64,000 nucleotides of DNA from an uncultured Lachnospiraceae bacterium. Lineage in GTDB: Bacteria > Bacillota > Clostridia > Lachnospirales > Lachnospiraceae. Position 1 is the first letter of the stretch. Each line of letters starts with the position of its first letter. Both the position numbers and the translations under genes were made by a program. The notes beneath the pieces are model-generated. The model made no database searches and was not told the origin of the DNA. It saw only the letters and a program-made list of their open reading frames with translations. Positions 4,791-40,239 of the stretch are shown here, one piece after another. The stretch is from NCBI GenBank assembly GCA_945868305.1, contig CAMBKU010000001.1, forward strand, positions 1 to 64,000. The letters are read 5' to 3'.

Positions 4791-6131
<1,341 letters not shown>

Positions 6132-34983: not shown

Positions 34984-36171
34984 CTATTTTGAATTTTTCT
35001 GTTCTTCTTTATATTTTGCAACCAGACGCTGAATCCTGTCATATGGGTTTAATAAATCGCTAATAGAAGTATCATGATTTAAGGTGTCAATGATGTAGGC
35101 GATATATTTACTCATATCACAGTTGATATAATACGGCTTAGCAAGAAGTTCAGGTGTCTGATAGGTCAAGTTTGTGGTAACAACCTTGTAGATGATGCCT
35201 TCTTCGACTGCCTTGTCAAACTTCTCCAATCCGTTGGTGAACAAACCAAAAGTAGAAATAACGAAGATGCGGTTTGCCTTTCTCTTTTTTAACTCGGTTG
35301 CAACATCAATCATACTTTCGCCGGAGGAAATCATATCGTCGACAATGAAAACATCCTTTCCTTCTACGGAAGAACCAAGGAATTCATGAGCAACAATCGG
35401 ATTACGTCCATCCACGATCTTGCTGTAGTCACGGCGCTTGTAGAACATACCCATATCAAGTCCCAAAACGTTTGCAAGGTAGATTGCACGTCCGGTACCG
35501 CCTTCGTCCGGGCTGATTACCATCATATGTTCGCTGTCAATCTGTAAGTCCTTTACTTCTCCAAGAATACCTTTTACGAACTGGTAAGCAGGCTGTACAG
35601 TTTCAAATCCGTTTAACGGAATTGCATTCTGGACACGTGGATCATGAGCGTCAAAAGTGATGATATTGTCTACACCCATGGAAATTAATTCCTGAAGAGC
35701 AATTGCACAGTCTAAAGATTCTCTGGAAGTACGTTTGTGCTGACGGCTTTCATACAAGAAAGGCATGATAACGGTGATTCTTCTTGCTTTTCCACCCACT
35801 GCAGCAATAACACGTTTCAAATCCTGAAAGTGATCATCCGGTGACATATGATTTTTATGACCGCATACGGTGTAGGTTAAATTGTAGTTCGTAACATCCA
35901 CAAGAAGGAAAAGGTCATAGCCACGGACAGATTCTTTGATGACACATTTTGCCTCTCCAGTACCGAAACGCGGTACACTGACATCAACGACGTAAGAGTC
36001 GCTTTGATAACCCTTGAATGCGATGGTATCCTTGTGTTCGTGCTGTCTTTTTTCTCTCCATTTTACCAGGTATTGGTCGACCTTTTCACCAAGCTCTCGG
36101 CAGCTTTCGAGAGGGATGATACCAAGACTTCCCTTTGGGATGGTTTCTAGATTTCTTTTTTCATCTGACAT
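34984..36171 (-). CDS. prs: Ribose-phosphate pyrophosphokinase
   Basis: VIMPFLYESRQHKRT, ITFDAHDPRVQNAIP, VFIVDDMISSGESMIDVA. Confidence 0.92.
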   Translation of the reverse strand: MSDEKRNLETIPKGSLGIIPLESCRELGEKVDQYLVKWREKRQHEHKDTIAFKGYQSDSYVVDVSVPRFGTGEAKCVIKESVRGYDLFLLVDVTNYNLTYTVCGHKNHMSPDDHFQDLKRVIAAVGGKARRITVIMPFLYESRQHKRTSRESLDCAIALQELISMGVDNIITFDAHDPRVQNAIPLNGFETVQPAYQFVKGILGEVKDLQIDSEHMMVISPDEGGTGRAIYLANVLGLDMGMFYKRRDYSKIVDGRNPIVAHEFLGSSVEGKDVFIVDDMISSGESMIDVATELKKRKANRIFVISTFGLFTNGLEKFDKAVEEGIIYKVVTTNLTYQTPELLAKPYYINCDMSKYIAYIIDTLNHDTSISDLLNPYDRIQRLVAKYKEEQKNSK

Positions 36172-36243
36172 GGATAAGTTCCTCCGTAAATATGAATTAT
36201 TAATAGTTTATTTCAATAGATGCAGCATCTAATGAGTGCAAAA

Positions 36244-37224
36244 TTAATGCAGTTTCTTTTTGATGCGGATGTCGTCGCCGTACAGCTTAATCATAGTATA
36301 GTTGGAAAATACTCTGGAAAAGGTACGCTCGGAATAAATATCCGCCAACTGGTTCATGCTCAAATTGGTAGAAATAATAGTTGATTTTTTGCGGAGCAGT
36401 CTTTCGTTTAAACATAAAAAGAACTGCGAGGTCGTGAATGAATTGGACATTTCTGTACCAAGATCATCAATGATCAGAAGATCACAGTCAAAAATATTCT
36501 GATGTGCTAAAACGGCATCGGTGTCTTTGTCAAAGACATTTTTGGCAAAGATATCAAAAAGCTGAAAGGCAGTGAAGTAAATCACAGAGTGCCCCAGGTC
36601 TAATAGTTCTTTGGCGATGCAGTTGGAAAGAAAGGTCTTTCCGACTCCGGTGTCGCCGTAGAAAAAGAGATTTTCAAAAGAACTGTCAAAGGTGTCAATA
36701 AAATGATGACTTTCCTTTTCGGCTCTCTGTATCAGCGCCAGAGCGGACAGCCCGGTAGACGGATCTGTCTGATCGTCTGAAAAATATTCATAGGAAAAAT
36801 GACTGAAGTTTTCCTCGGAGAGAATATTTTTGATGTTGGATTGCGTATATACCAGGTCAATGGCTGCCTGTTTAAAGCAATGACAGCGCTCATTTCCGAT
36901 ATATCCGGTATCTTTGCAGTCTGGACACTGGTATGGCGGGATAAAATAATCCTCGGAATAACCAAGTGCCTGTAACAGTGCAGCTTTTTCTTCATGCAGG
37001 GAAGCAATCTGTTTCTTTAAATCGGATAAAGCACCCAAGTCCCCTTCCAGTAACTTTTTCGCCTGAGCCACTGAAGCAGAGGAAATAGTGTCGTCAATCT
37101 CCTTGAGGCGCGCATTTTTAGAATAAACTTCTTGTTTGCGCTTTTCGACAATATGCTGATTTTTTAGCTGCCTTGCATTGTACTGACGGATAATCTCGTC
37201 GTACTGTGTATTGCTTAATGCCAT
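36244..37224 (-). CDS. DnaC/DnaI-like ATP-binding helicase loader
   Basis: CPDCKDTGYIGNERCHCFKQ zinc motif; FFYGDTGVGKTFLSNCIAKELL; LLIIDDLGTE. Confidence 0.9.
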   Translation of the reverse strand: MALSNTQYDEIIRQYNARQLKNQHIVEKRKQEVYSKNARLKEIDDTISSASVAQAKKLLEGDLGALSDLKKQIASLHEEKAALLQALGYSEDYFIPPYQCPDCKDTGYIGNERCHCFKQAAIDLVYTQSNIKNILSEENFSHFSYEYFSDDQTDPSTGLSALALIQRAEKESHHFIDTFDSSFENLFFYGDTGVGKTFLSNCIAKELLDLGHSVIYFTAFQLFDIFAKNVFDKDTDAVLAHQNIFDCDLLIIDDLGTEMSNSFTTSQFFLCLNERLLRKKSTIISTNLSMNQLADIYSERTFSRVFSNYTMIKLYGDDIRIKKKLH

Positions 37225-37239
37225 GTTAAGAGCCTCCTG

Positions 37240-38340
37240 CTACTGCATGGAATGGTTTAATGCCTGTTTTTCCAACTGGTCGAAATCGTAAGAACGCTGT
37301 GAAAAATTGTTGAATTTGTTTGTGGAAGCCGTCTCCTTCTGATTGCGGACGGCTGTCTTAGGCTTCTTATTTAAAAACGCCTCATCTAATGCAGCGATTT
37401 CCTTTAGAGAGGAAACGTTTTTCTTACGCCAGTTATTCAAAATAGAATCGGTATATTCAAAACTCGGCTGGTGGATTGCTTGCATGGTACGTTTGCATGC
37501 TTCCGTTACCAATTCTAAGGAAAATCCATAAGTGTTTGTCCACTTTTTGATAAAATTAAGCTCGGATTCTACCAGACTTCGACCGGTAATACCGAAAGCC
37601 TTCATGATGGCAGAATTTGTCTTGCTGTAATGTTCGTTTGCTTCCTTTGCCTGTGTGACTGACAAAATGCCTGATTCGTGCCAGGATAAGGCAACTTTTT
37701 CCATGTAGCGCAGACTTTTGTGTCCTCCGCCAACGCAGTATTCAATCAAATATTCCATCAATTCTACGGAAAATCCGAGACTGTCATGCCAATACAAGAT
37801 AGTGTTGATATCCGTTGCATTTAAAGTATGCCCAAGATAGGTCTCGGTAATGAATAAAAGTTCCTGGACACTCTTGTCTTCCTGAAAAGCCCTCATTTCA
37901 TCTGCAGAGTAGTCTTTTTTGGGACTTTCTGCAGGTGGCGTCTGGTCTGTTACAGAGGCGGAAACAGTATCGCCACTTCTTTGGGCGACAGTGTCGTGAG
38001 AACCGCTGGTGACAGGTGCAGATGCCGAGGTGTCGGAAAGCCGGCTGGTATCGGATAGACAGATACCGGTCAGCTTATGATGTTCATCATATTCGAGACG
38101 GAGTACCTGAGCTTTTTCCCAATAAGCAAGAGCACGTTTGATGTCTTTTTCCGTATGCTCGAATTTGTCTGCCATGCCCGAAATGGAAAAGGATTCCTCC
38201 GGGGCGCTCATGCAGCGCAAAAGATATAAATAAATTTTTACATATTCCCCGTCTGCGTCAGCCATCAGTTCATCAATGAAAACGTTAGGGACACAGGTGA
38301 CGGTTTCGTTATTTTCACTATGTAATGTAATGCCTGCCAT
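37240..38340 (-). CDS. DnaD domain replication protein
   Basis: DnaD-like helical repeats: YWHDSLGFSVELMEYLIEYCVGGGHKSLRYMEKVALSWHESGILSVTQAKE; NWRKKNV. Confidence 0.88.
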   Translation of the reverse strand: MAGITLHSENNETVTCVPNVFIDELMADADGEYVKIYLYLLRCMSAPEESFSISGMADKFEHTEKDIKRALAYWEKAQVLRLEYDEHHKLTGICLSDTSRLSDTSASAPVTSGSHDTVAQRSGDTVSASVTDQTPPAESPKKDYSADEMRAFQEDKSVQELLFITETYLGHTLNATDINTILYWHDSLGFSVELMEYLIEYCVGGGHKSLRYMEKVALSWHESGILSVTQAKEANEHYSKTNSAIMKAFGITGRSLVESELNFIKKWTNTYGFSLELVTEACKRTMQAIHQPSFEYTDSILNNWRKKNVSSLKEIAALDEAFLNKKPKTAVRNQKETASTNKFNNFSQRSYDFDQLEKQALNHSMQ

Positions 38341-38441
38341 AATACTCCCTCTTTCAACTCACACATTATAGCATATGAATTTTGAAATGAGAAGCCCTAT
38401 TTTTTCCTGCAATCCCAGAAAAATCAAGGGTTGCGGGGTGG

Positions 38442-38610
38442 AGTGGACAATGTGGATAATGTGGAAAAAAAGGGAGATGTAAATTTATGGAAACTGCACA
38501 ATCGGTCAAAAATCAACAAAATGAGTTATCCACTTTTTTTTATGTAAACATAAAAAATCCACACCGAATTGTTAGGTAATACACAATTACGATGTGGATA
38601 ATGTGGATAA
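38442..38610. promoter_or_regulatory. DnaA-box cluster upstream of dnaD/dnaC-like genes
   Basis: tgtggataa at 38451-38459, 38593-38601, 38602-38610 (exact complement of TTATCCACA); near matches agtggacaa 38442-38450, tgtggaaaa 38460-38468, ttatccact 38526-38534, aaatccaca 38555-38563. Confidence 0.85.
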
Positions 38611-39990
38611 CTATTGTCCAAGAAGGTGTTCACCAACAGTATAGATGTCTCCAGCGCCCATAGTTATCAACAAATCGTTGTTCACACAATTTTCTAAAAG
38701 AAAATCTTCGATTTCACCAAAGGAAGAAAAATAGTAGCTTTCTGTTCCAAGGGCTTTTAGTTCCTCTAAAATAGCTGTTGAGGAGATACCGATGGTATTT
38801 TTCTCTCTTGCAGCGTAGATGTCGGCAAGAACCACGACATCTGCGATGGATAAAGCTTTTGCAAAGTCTTTTAAGAAGGCTTTGGTTCTGGAATAGGTGT
38901 GTGGCTGAAAGACGCACACCAGACGATCATGCGGATAATTTTTTGCAGCATTTAAAGTGGCAGCAATTTCTGTTGGATGATGTGCATAGTCATCAATAAC
39001 GGTAATTCCGTTTATCATGCCTTTGTGTTCAAATCTCCGTTTTGCCCCGCCGAAAATGGAAAGTCCGTGAATGATATCTTCCAGGGAAATCCCCATTTTT
39101 TCTGCAACGGCGATGGCTGCGAGGGAATTATATACATTATGTTCGCCCGGTACGTTTAGAGTGATATCACAAAGCTTTGTGCCGTTTTTATTTACAGTAT
39201 AATGTGCACAGGCTTTTTCATTATAAGTAATATCAGAAGCATAATAAGTGCAGTCCGGTGTAAGACCATAAGTAATCACCTCCGGTGTAAGACCGCTTGT
39301 GATTTCTTCATAGCGTTCGATTTGTCCGTTTATAATGATGGCACCGTCAGAAATAGTATTTTCTGCAAATAAATGGAAAGAATGACGGATGTCATTAATA
39401 TCTTTAAAGAAGTCGAGATGTTCCGCTTCGATATCCAGAATGATGCTGTAACGTGGGCGGAAGTTTAAAAAGCTGTTGGTGTATTCACAGGCTTCGGTTA
39501 CAAAGATATCAGAATGCCCCACGCGGATATTGCCGCCGATGGCGTCTAGGATACCACCTACGGAGAGCGTCGGATCTTTTGCTGCACAGAGTAAAATCTG
39601 TGAGATCATGGATGTGGTCGTTGTTTTTCCGTGAGTGCCGGAAACAGCCACGGACTGTCTGTAGTTATCCATAATCTGTCCGAGCAGCTCGGCTCTGGAA
39701 AGCATGGGGATTCCCATGGATTTTGCAGCTGTAAACTCTGGATTGTCTTCTTTAATGGCAGCGGTGTAAACGACTAAGTCTGTGCCGGGCAAAATGTTTT
39801 CGGCGCGCTGTCCGTAAAAAATCTCGGCGCCCATTTCGGTCAGATTGTCAGTCAGCTCGGACTCTTTGGAGTCTGAACCGGATATTTTAAAATGTTCTTT
39901 CAGTAAGATTTCGGCAAGACCGCTCATACTGATGCCGCCGATACCGATGAAATGAACATGAATTGGCTGTTTAAAATCAATCTTATACAT
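38611..39990 (-). CDS. murC: UDP-N-acetylmuramate--L-alanine ligase
   Basis: VHFIGIGGISMSGLAEIL, VSGTHGKTTTTSMI, VIDDYAHHPTEI. Confidence 0.97.
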   Translation of the reverse strand: MYKIDFKQPIHVHFIGIGGISMSGLAEILLKEHFKISGSDSKESELTDNLTEMGAEIFYGQRAENILPGTDLVVYTAAIKEDNPEFTAAKSMGIPMLSRAELLGQIMDNYRQSVAVSGTHGKTTTTSMISQILLCAAKDPTLSVGGILDAIGGNIRVGHSDIFVTEACEYTNSFLNFRPRYSIILDIEAEHLDFFKDINDIRHSFHLFAENTISDGAIIINGQIERYEEITSGLTPEVITYGLTPDCTYYASDITYNEKACAHYTVNKNGTKLCDITLNVPGEHNVYNSLAAIAVAEKMGISLEDIIHGLSIFGGAKRRFEHKGMINGITVIDDYAHHPTEIAATLNAAKNYPHDRLVCVFQPHTYSRTKAFLKDFAKALSIADVVVLADIYAAREKNTIGISSTAILEELKALGTESYYFSSFGEIEDFLLENCVNNDLLITMGAGDIYTVGEHLLGQ

Positions 39991-40239
39991 GATATATACC
40001 TGCTTTTCTAAAATTAAATTTTCATATGATATATTATAACCATATATCATAATTTTGCAAATTTATTTTCTAATAGGTAGAGAAGCTTCCAAAATACCCA
40101 AAAATTTCCATGTTTTGTGTAATATAACGAAAAAATGCGAAAAAGAAGAAAAAAATTGTTGAAAATAATGTACATTGTGAAAAAATTGTGATATAATTTG
40201 AAATATCGAATAACCCAACATTTACGAGAGGTGATAGAC

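Follow-up and report, generated by a model that had tools for sequence, protein, structure and literature searches.

A conserved, helically phased DnaA-box array between murC and dnaD in Lachnospiraceae as a putative DnaA-responsive element of the helicase-loader operon

In Bacillus subtilis, the control of replication initiation is mainly described in terms of proteins acting on DnaA at oriC. The protein also binds elsewhere on the chromosome; its main in vitro peaks lie at sda, ywlC, ywcI, yydA, trmE, dnaA and gcp/ydiF, and dnaD, dnaB and dnaI are not among them (PMC4447404). At the B. subtilis incC locus, genetic data have led to the inference of a DnaA loop that depends on helical phase (PMC6669920), and a ChIP-seq regulon of Escherichia coli shows DnaA bound to same-strand box pairs at regulated promoters (PMC11317965). 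DnaA acts on promoters both as an activator and as a repressor, and dnaB, the replicative helicase gene of Caulobacter crescentus, belongs to the DnaA regulon (PMC8203912). The open papers that we searched contained no DnaA-regulated helicase-loader operon and no earlier report of the element described here, a DnaA-box array in the gap between murC and a dnaD-dnaC operon.

The array between murC and dnaD

The window analysed here is a 64-kb stretch of DNA from a draft assembly (G000; 2.67 Mb in 131 contigs, 85% complete) whose closest relatives by gene similarity are Lachnospiraceae, e.g. Roseburia and Agathobacter. No dnaA was detectable in this assembly. A gap of 270 bp separates murC from the dnaD-like gene (Table 1), and the gene order murC-dnaD-dnaC-prs is kept in nearly all relatives fetched. 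GC skew indicates that this block (34984-40050, minus strand) is apparently transcribed head-on to replication, and the same orientation was seen in a relative (G061, contig C3, near 212 kb, plus strand); head-on transcription is unusual for essential genes.

Table 1. Features of the murC-dnaD gap and its neighbouring genes, in window positions
Feature	Position	Strand	Remarks
murC	38611-40050	-	Upstream neighbour; stop codon and terminator adjoin cluster 1
Cluster 1	38593-38610	-	Doublet of exact TTATCCACA boxes with no spacing (38602-38610, 38593-38601), bordering the stop codon of murC
murC intrinsic terminator	38552-38599	-	Hairpin and T-run; -19.9 kcal/mol, z -3.9
GTTTACATAA motif	38540-38549	-	Within the putative loop; retained in part of the family
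Lone inverse near box TTATCCACT	38526-38534	+	One mismatch here, none in L005, a genome of the same genus; not a general feature
GTTTCCATAA motif	38485-38494	-	Precedes cluster 2 by about 23-36 bp in some members of the family
Cluster 2	38442-38468	-	Three abutting boxes TTTTCCACA, TTATCCACA, TTGTCCACT; exact box at 38451-38459, one-mismatch box at 38460-38468; 124 bp from cluster 1
CTTGATTTTTCTGG conserved motif	38415-38428	-	Usually 53-55 nt before the -10 TG
dnaD promoter	38365-38393	-	-35 TTCTCA (38388-38393), 17-bp spacer, extended -10 TGCTATAAT (38365-38373)
dnaD-like gene	37240-38340	-	DnaB_2/DnaD domain protein; putative regulated gene; start codon at 38340
dnaC/dnaI-like gene	36244-37224	-	Second operon gene; AAA+ ATPase and putative loader of the helicase
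prs	34984-36171	-	

Read in the direction of dnaD, the gap runs from the murC stop codon through cluster 1, the terminator hairpin with its T-run and an AT-rich stretch bearing GTTTACATAA and GTTTCCATAA, to cluster 2, CTTGATTTTTCTGG, the promoter and the dnaD start. Three exact boxes (TTATCCACA) lie in the gap, along with several near matches; a preliminary description of this DNA had placed the exact boxes within an abutting doublet at the murC stop and an abutting triplet, and all of these positions agree with ours. Allowing up to one mismatch, chance alone would give about 20 matches per 64 kb; with five observed in 169 bp, the density of boxes is far from chance, as in the DnaA-box clusters (DBCs) of B. 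subtilis. The array is confirmed as real. Two of the elements noted between the clusters are to be read otherwise. Both of the inverse-orientation near matches exist, but one of them, TGTGGATTT, forms the 3' arm of the terminator of murC, and is explained by pairing, because box 2 of cluster 1 lies in the 5' arm of the same stem. Likewise, the AT-rich palindrome is present as sequence, but is the T-run of the terminator continuing into GTTTACATAA, a motif of only part of the family. At the terminator, TGTGGATTTTTT is conserved in the anchored consensus of relatives.

The preliminary description had staked its reading on conservation of the array, and this is what we found. Among 74 non-duplicate murC-dnaD intergenic regions of relatives, 63 carry a cluster of abutting boxes no more than 20 nt from the stop codon of murC, and two clusters are present in 56. 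We found the exact 18-mer doublet in 47 of the 80 family genomes, and its reversed control in none (0/80). Farther out in the order the array is patchy, and one or both clusters have been lost in some relatives, mostly those with a short gap. Two genomes have a gene inserted between murC and dnaD, with the boxes staying beside dnaD in one (L255) and beside murC in the other (L252); with one case each way, these insertions favour neither gene as the one that the array follows.

In other families of the class the doublet lies elsewhere, e.g. between genes that, named by sequence reading, encode a replicative-helicase-like protein and a FAD-type oxidoreductase. Zero-spaced doublets stand upstream of a replicative-helicase-like gene in one of these families (L245-L251), which suggests that DnaA arrays may have become attached to helicase-step genes more than once, and upstream of an amino-acid-ABC-transporter-like gene in two others (L222-L226).

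The abutting arrangement sets these arrays apart from the boxes at dnaA loci. In the dnaD gaps, 185 same-strand pairs are spaced 9 bp start to start (0 bp between boxes) versus 22 at 12 bp; across 38 dnaA loci of relatives, the preference is reversed, with 53 pairs at 11-12 bp (a gap of 2-3 bp) versus eight at 9 bp. The earlier remark that zero-spaced tandem boxes are unusual is thus upheld by the relatives' own dnaA loci. At one locus upstream of dnaA (L208, in genome G017), more than 20 DnaA boxes, some of them abutting, are packed with unusual density.

Helical phasing of the clusters and the promoter

The distance between clusters 1 and 2 spans 69-171 bp across relatives, with values clustering near 70, 81, 91, 102, 112, 124, 137, 148, 158 and 171 bp. 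These distances are best described by a period of 11.15 bp (R=0.728, n=54), a fit that none of 5000 control sets jittered by up to 6 bp could equal (0/5000); when each distinct value is counted once, R remains at 0.669, again unequalled (0/5000). Since the period had been found by scanning periods, a test on loci held out from the scan is important. With period and phase fixed beforehand, 17 such loci, none a near-duplicate of the first set, gave R=0.69 (Rayleigh p~3e-4) at a nearly identical phase. A MurC tree also gave 36 disjoint pairs of nearest relatives, in which the distance changed by 4 bp or more 19 times; 15 of these changes lie no more than 2 bp from a whole number of turns (45% expected, p=0.003). 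The distance between the two sites therefore varies by whole turns, as in a looped element, and about 11 bp per turn is typical of DNA looping in living cells.

A second spacing is also quantised. The dnaD promoter reads TTCTCA-N17-TATAAT, with a weak -35 and an extended -10 that is conserved in relatives; the last box of cluster 2 lies 45-46, 53-57, 64-68 or 75-77 bp from the TG of this extended -10, and 12 held-out distances fall in the same classes. This phasing leans on the common value of 66 bp, and when distinct values only are used, 11 of 5000 controls reach it. The control distances (-10 to start codon, and total length) have no periodicity. The boxes thus hold a conserved position relative to the promoter, as is found at DnaA-regulated promoters.

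Other constraints in the gap were also considered. The CTTGATTTTACTGG motif, at 38415-38428 in the window and also present in relatives, usually keeps its position before the dnaD -10 TG even where the boxes are shifted by one turn, and is often found inside an inverted repeat AACCC..GGGTT. It could be the site of a co-regulator; a genome-wide regulator site was rejected, as the motif has a single match in the window's own genome. A structured RNA in the leader was also rejected: no Rfam family covers the dnaD leader, and the one weak snoRNA match, within murC (E=0.78), was taken as chance.

A candidate DnaA loop and its alternatives

The analysis shows conserved boxes, two helically quantised spacings, a promoter sequence and a location outside oriC; from these we infer DnaA as the binding protein, the formation of a loop and a transcriptional response. 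We propose, with a probability of roughly 0.6, that the gap is a DnaA-responsive regulatory element of dnaD-dnaC, in which DnaA at both clusters loops the DNA on a fixed helical face and regulates the promoter. DnaA would bind each zero-spaced cluster cooperatively, as short arrays, and the two assemblies, being in fixed helical phase, would join by folding the intervening 69-171 bp into a loop whose length could change only by whole turns. The promoter-proximal cluster 2 would present the complex to the dnaD promoter, with its extended -10 and weak -35, from a fixed side; because the phase of cluster 2 to the promoter is fixed, the complex would be expected to alter the activity of RNA polymerase there. 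Synthesis of the helicase loader would thereby be tied to DnaA activity. The position of both clusters, upstream of the -35, makes us lean slightly towards activation as the sign of this regulation.

The preliminary description had offered two ideas, DnaA feedback on the helicase-loading genes and a titration/reactivation-type locus. This interpretation is partly supported, and the first idea is the better supported of the two, because the array is conserved and cluster 2 is helically phased to the dnaD promoter; pure titration predicts no such phasing. If feedback does operate here, a major group of gut bacteria would have an added level of control, transcriptional in kind, that links the initiator to the loader.

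Titration is the alternative that survives best, though we judge it unlikely. Boxes proximal to oriC would soak up free DnaA, like the DBCs of B. subtilis, the nearness of the dnaD promoter would be incidental, and a loop may only strengthen binding. The chromosomal position is as expected for such sites, with dnaD 46-480 kb from dnaA in relatives that have both on one contig; B. subtilis strains that lose six clusters initiate early (PMC5295017); and a second doublet array, described below, is not tied to one downstream gene. Titration predicts neither the quantised distance between cluster 2 and the dnaD promoter nor a fixed place beside the same operon, although it may occur as a side-effect of the dnaD-gap array.

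It is improbable that a constraint unrelated to DnaA, be it the murC terminator stem or another DNA-binding protein, maintains the repeats. The overlap of box 2 of cluster 1 with the 5' arm of the terminator would be explained in this way, but conservation is about equally strong in box 1 and in cluster 2. A terminator-only explanation was rejected because box 1 lies outside the stem and cluster 2 lies away from the terminator. Furthermore, TTATCCACA is the DnaA box in its canonical form, and this 9-mer recurs at the relatives' dnaA loci.

A switch of the DnaA nucleotide state, akin to E. coli datA or DARS, is more improbable still. Such a looped complex would promote ATP hydrolysis or ADP release with the aid of a bending protein at GTTTACATAA, and the arrangement of two clusters flanking an AT-rich stretch with a motif retained in part of the family would suit it. 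The motif is missing from most relatives, however, and GTTTACATAA was rejected as a general bending-protein site for that reason. The reviewed regulators of B. subtilis work by means other than changing the nucleotide that DnaA carries (PMC5295017, PMC4447404), and a nucleotide switch leaves the phasing of the promoter unexplained.

Lastly, many DnaA boxes, AT-rich DNA and adjoining initiation genes might be taken for a replication origin or a part of one, but this can be dismissed, because the GC skew, which had been suggested as a means of placing oriC, keeps one sign throughout the window with no switch, the cumulative skew minimum of G061 lies at dnaA (466 kb) and not at dnaD (about 212 kb, 253 kb away), and DnaA-trios, which follow a box in the dnaA-dnaN regions of many relatives, are no commoner in the dnaD gap than in shuffled sequences and do not adjoin the boxes there. 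These data place oriC at dnaA, and the murC-dnaD array outside the origin, as are the DBCs.

A second conserved array with a zero-spaced doublet was found in relatives (loci L202-L206, L209-L216, L219-L221, L133, L134, L139, L144, L146, L154, L157 and L243). A lone box often precedes TTATCCACATTATCCACA by 53 bp (start to start), and gTTATACACcgag stands directly before the doublet; the window's own genome has a degenerate copy (L259; contig C52 of G000, 5438-5455). This second array lies near hpf/raiA and secA, 3' of a secreted-protein gene in several genomes, or by other genes (names by sequence reading); its distance to dnaA is 39 kb in G036 and 86 kb in G006. Since it is not tied to one downstream gene, it is perhaps a titration- or DARS-like site.

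Returning to the DnaA loop on the dnaD-dnaC promoter, we tentatively suggest, at somewhat less than even odds, a wider scheme in which DnaA is addressed through two codes of box spacing in Lachnospiraceae and close relatives. Boxes separated by 2-3 bp would serve unwinding at oriC, and paired clusters of zero-spaced boxes, set for looping in steps of 11 bp, would form, at the helicase-loader promoter, a loop switch feeding DnaA activity back on the supply of DnaD and DnaC, as a conserved, family-wide control point of initiation. The contrast in spacing between the dnaA loci and the dnaD element makes it testable how box geometry decides between unwinding and promoter regulation.

Comparison with described DnaA systems

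Each of the closest described systems shares some features with the murC-dnaD array. The DnaA nucleotide-state loci of E. coli, datA and DARS, are likewise non-coding DnaA-box loci outside the origin, but they change the nucleotide state of DnaA, whereas the dnaD gap has a promoter phased to its boxes and no general bending-protein site was found in it. Caulobacter dnaB is an instance of DnaA control over a gene of the helicase-loading step; it encodes the helicase and not the loader, belongs to another phylum, and is described in the source passage with no mention of loop geometry. The double boxes of E. coli promoters are 2-3 bp apart, whereas the dnaD gap has two clusters, with 0 bp between neighbouring boxes. 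The B. subtilis incC loop, in which a distal box acts on origin boxes 6/7, resembles our proposal in that separate sites cooperate with helical phasing; incC, however, unwinds oriC beside DnaA-trios, and the neighbour of the trio-less dnaD gap is a promoter. The DBCs of B. subtilis (near gcp/ydiF, ywlC, yydA, ywcI and sda) also comprise several intergenic boxes outside the origin, in the origin-proximal part of the chromosome. They differ in their genes, and in the papers searched we found no description of zero-spaced paired clusters with conserved helical geometry for them. Within those papers, the paired clusters of the dnaD gap thus appear to constitute an undescribed variant of the DnaA-box cluster, one that most likely forms a DnaA loop.
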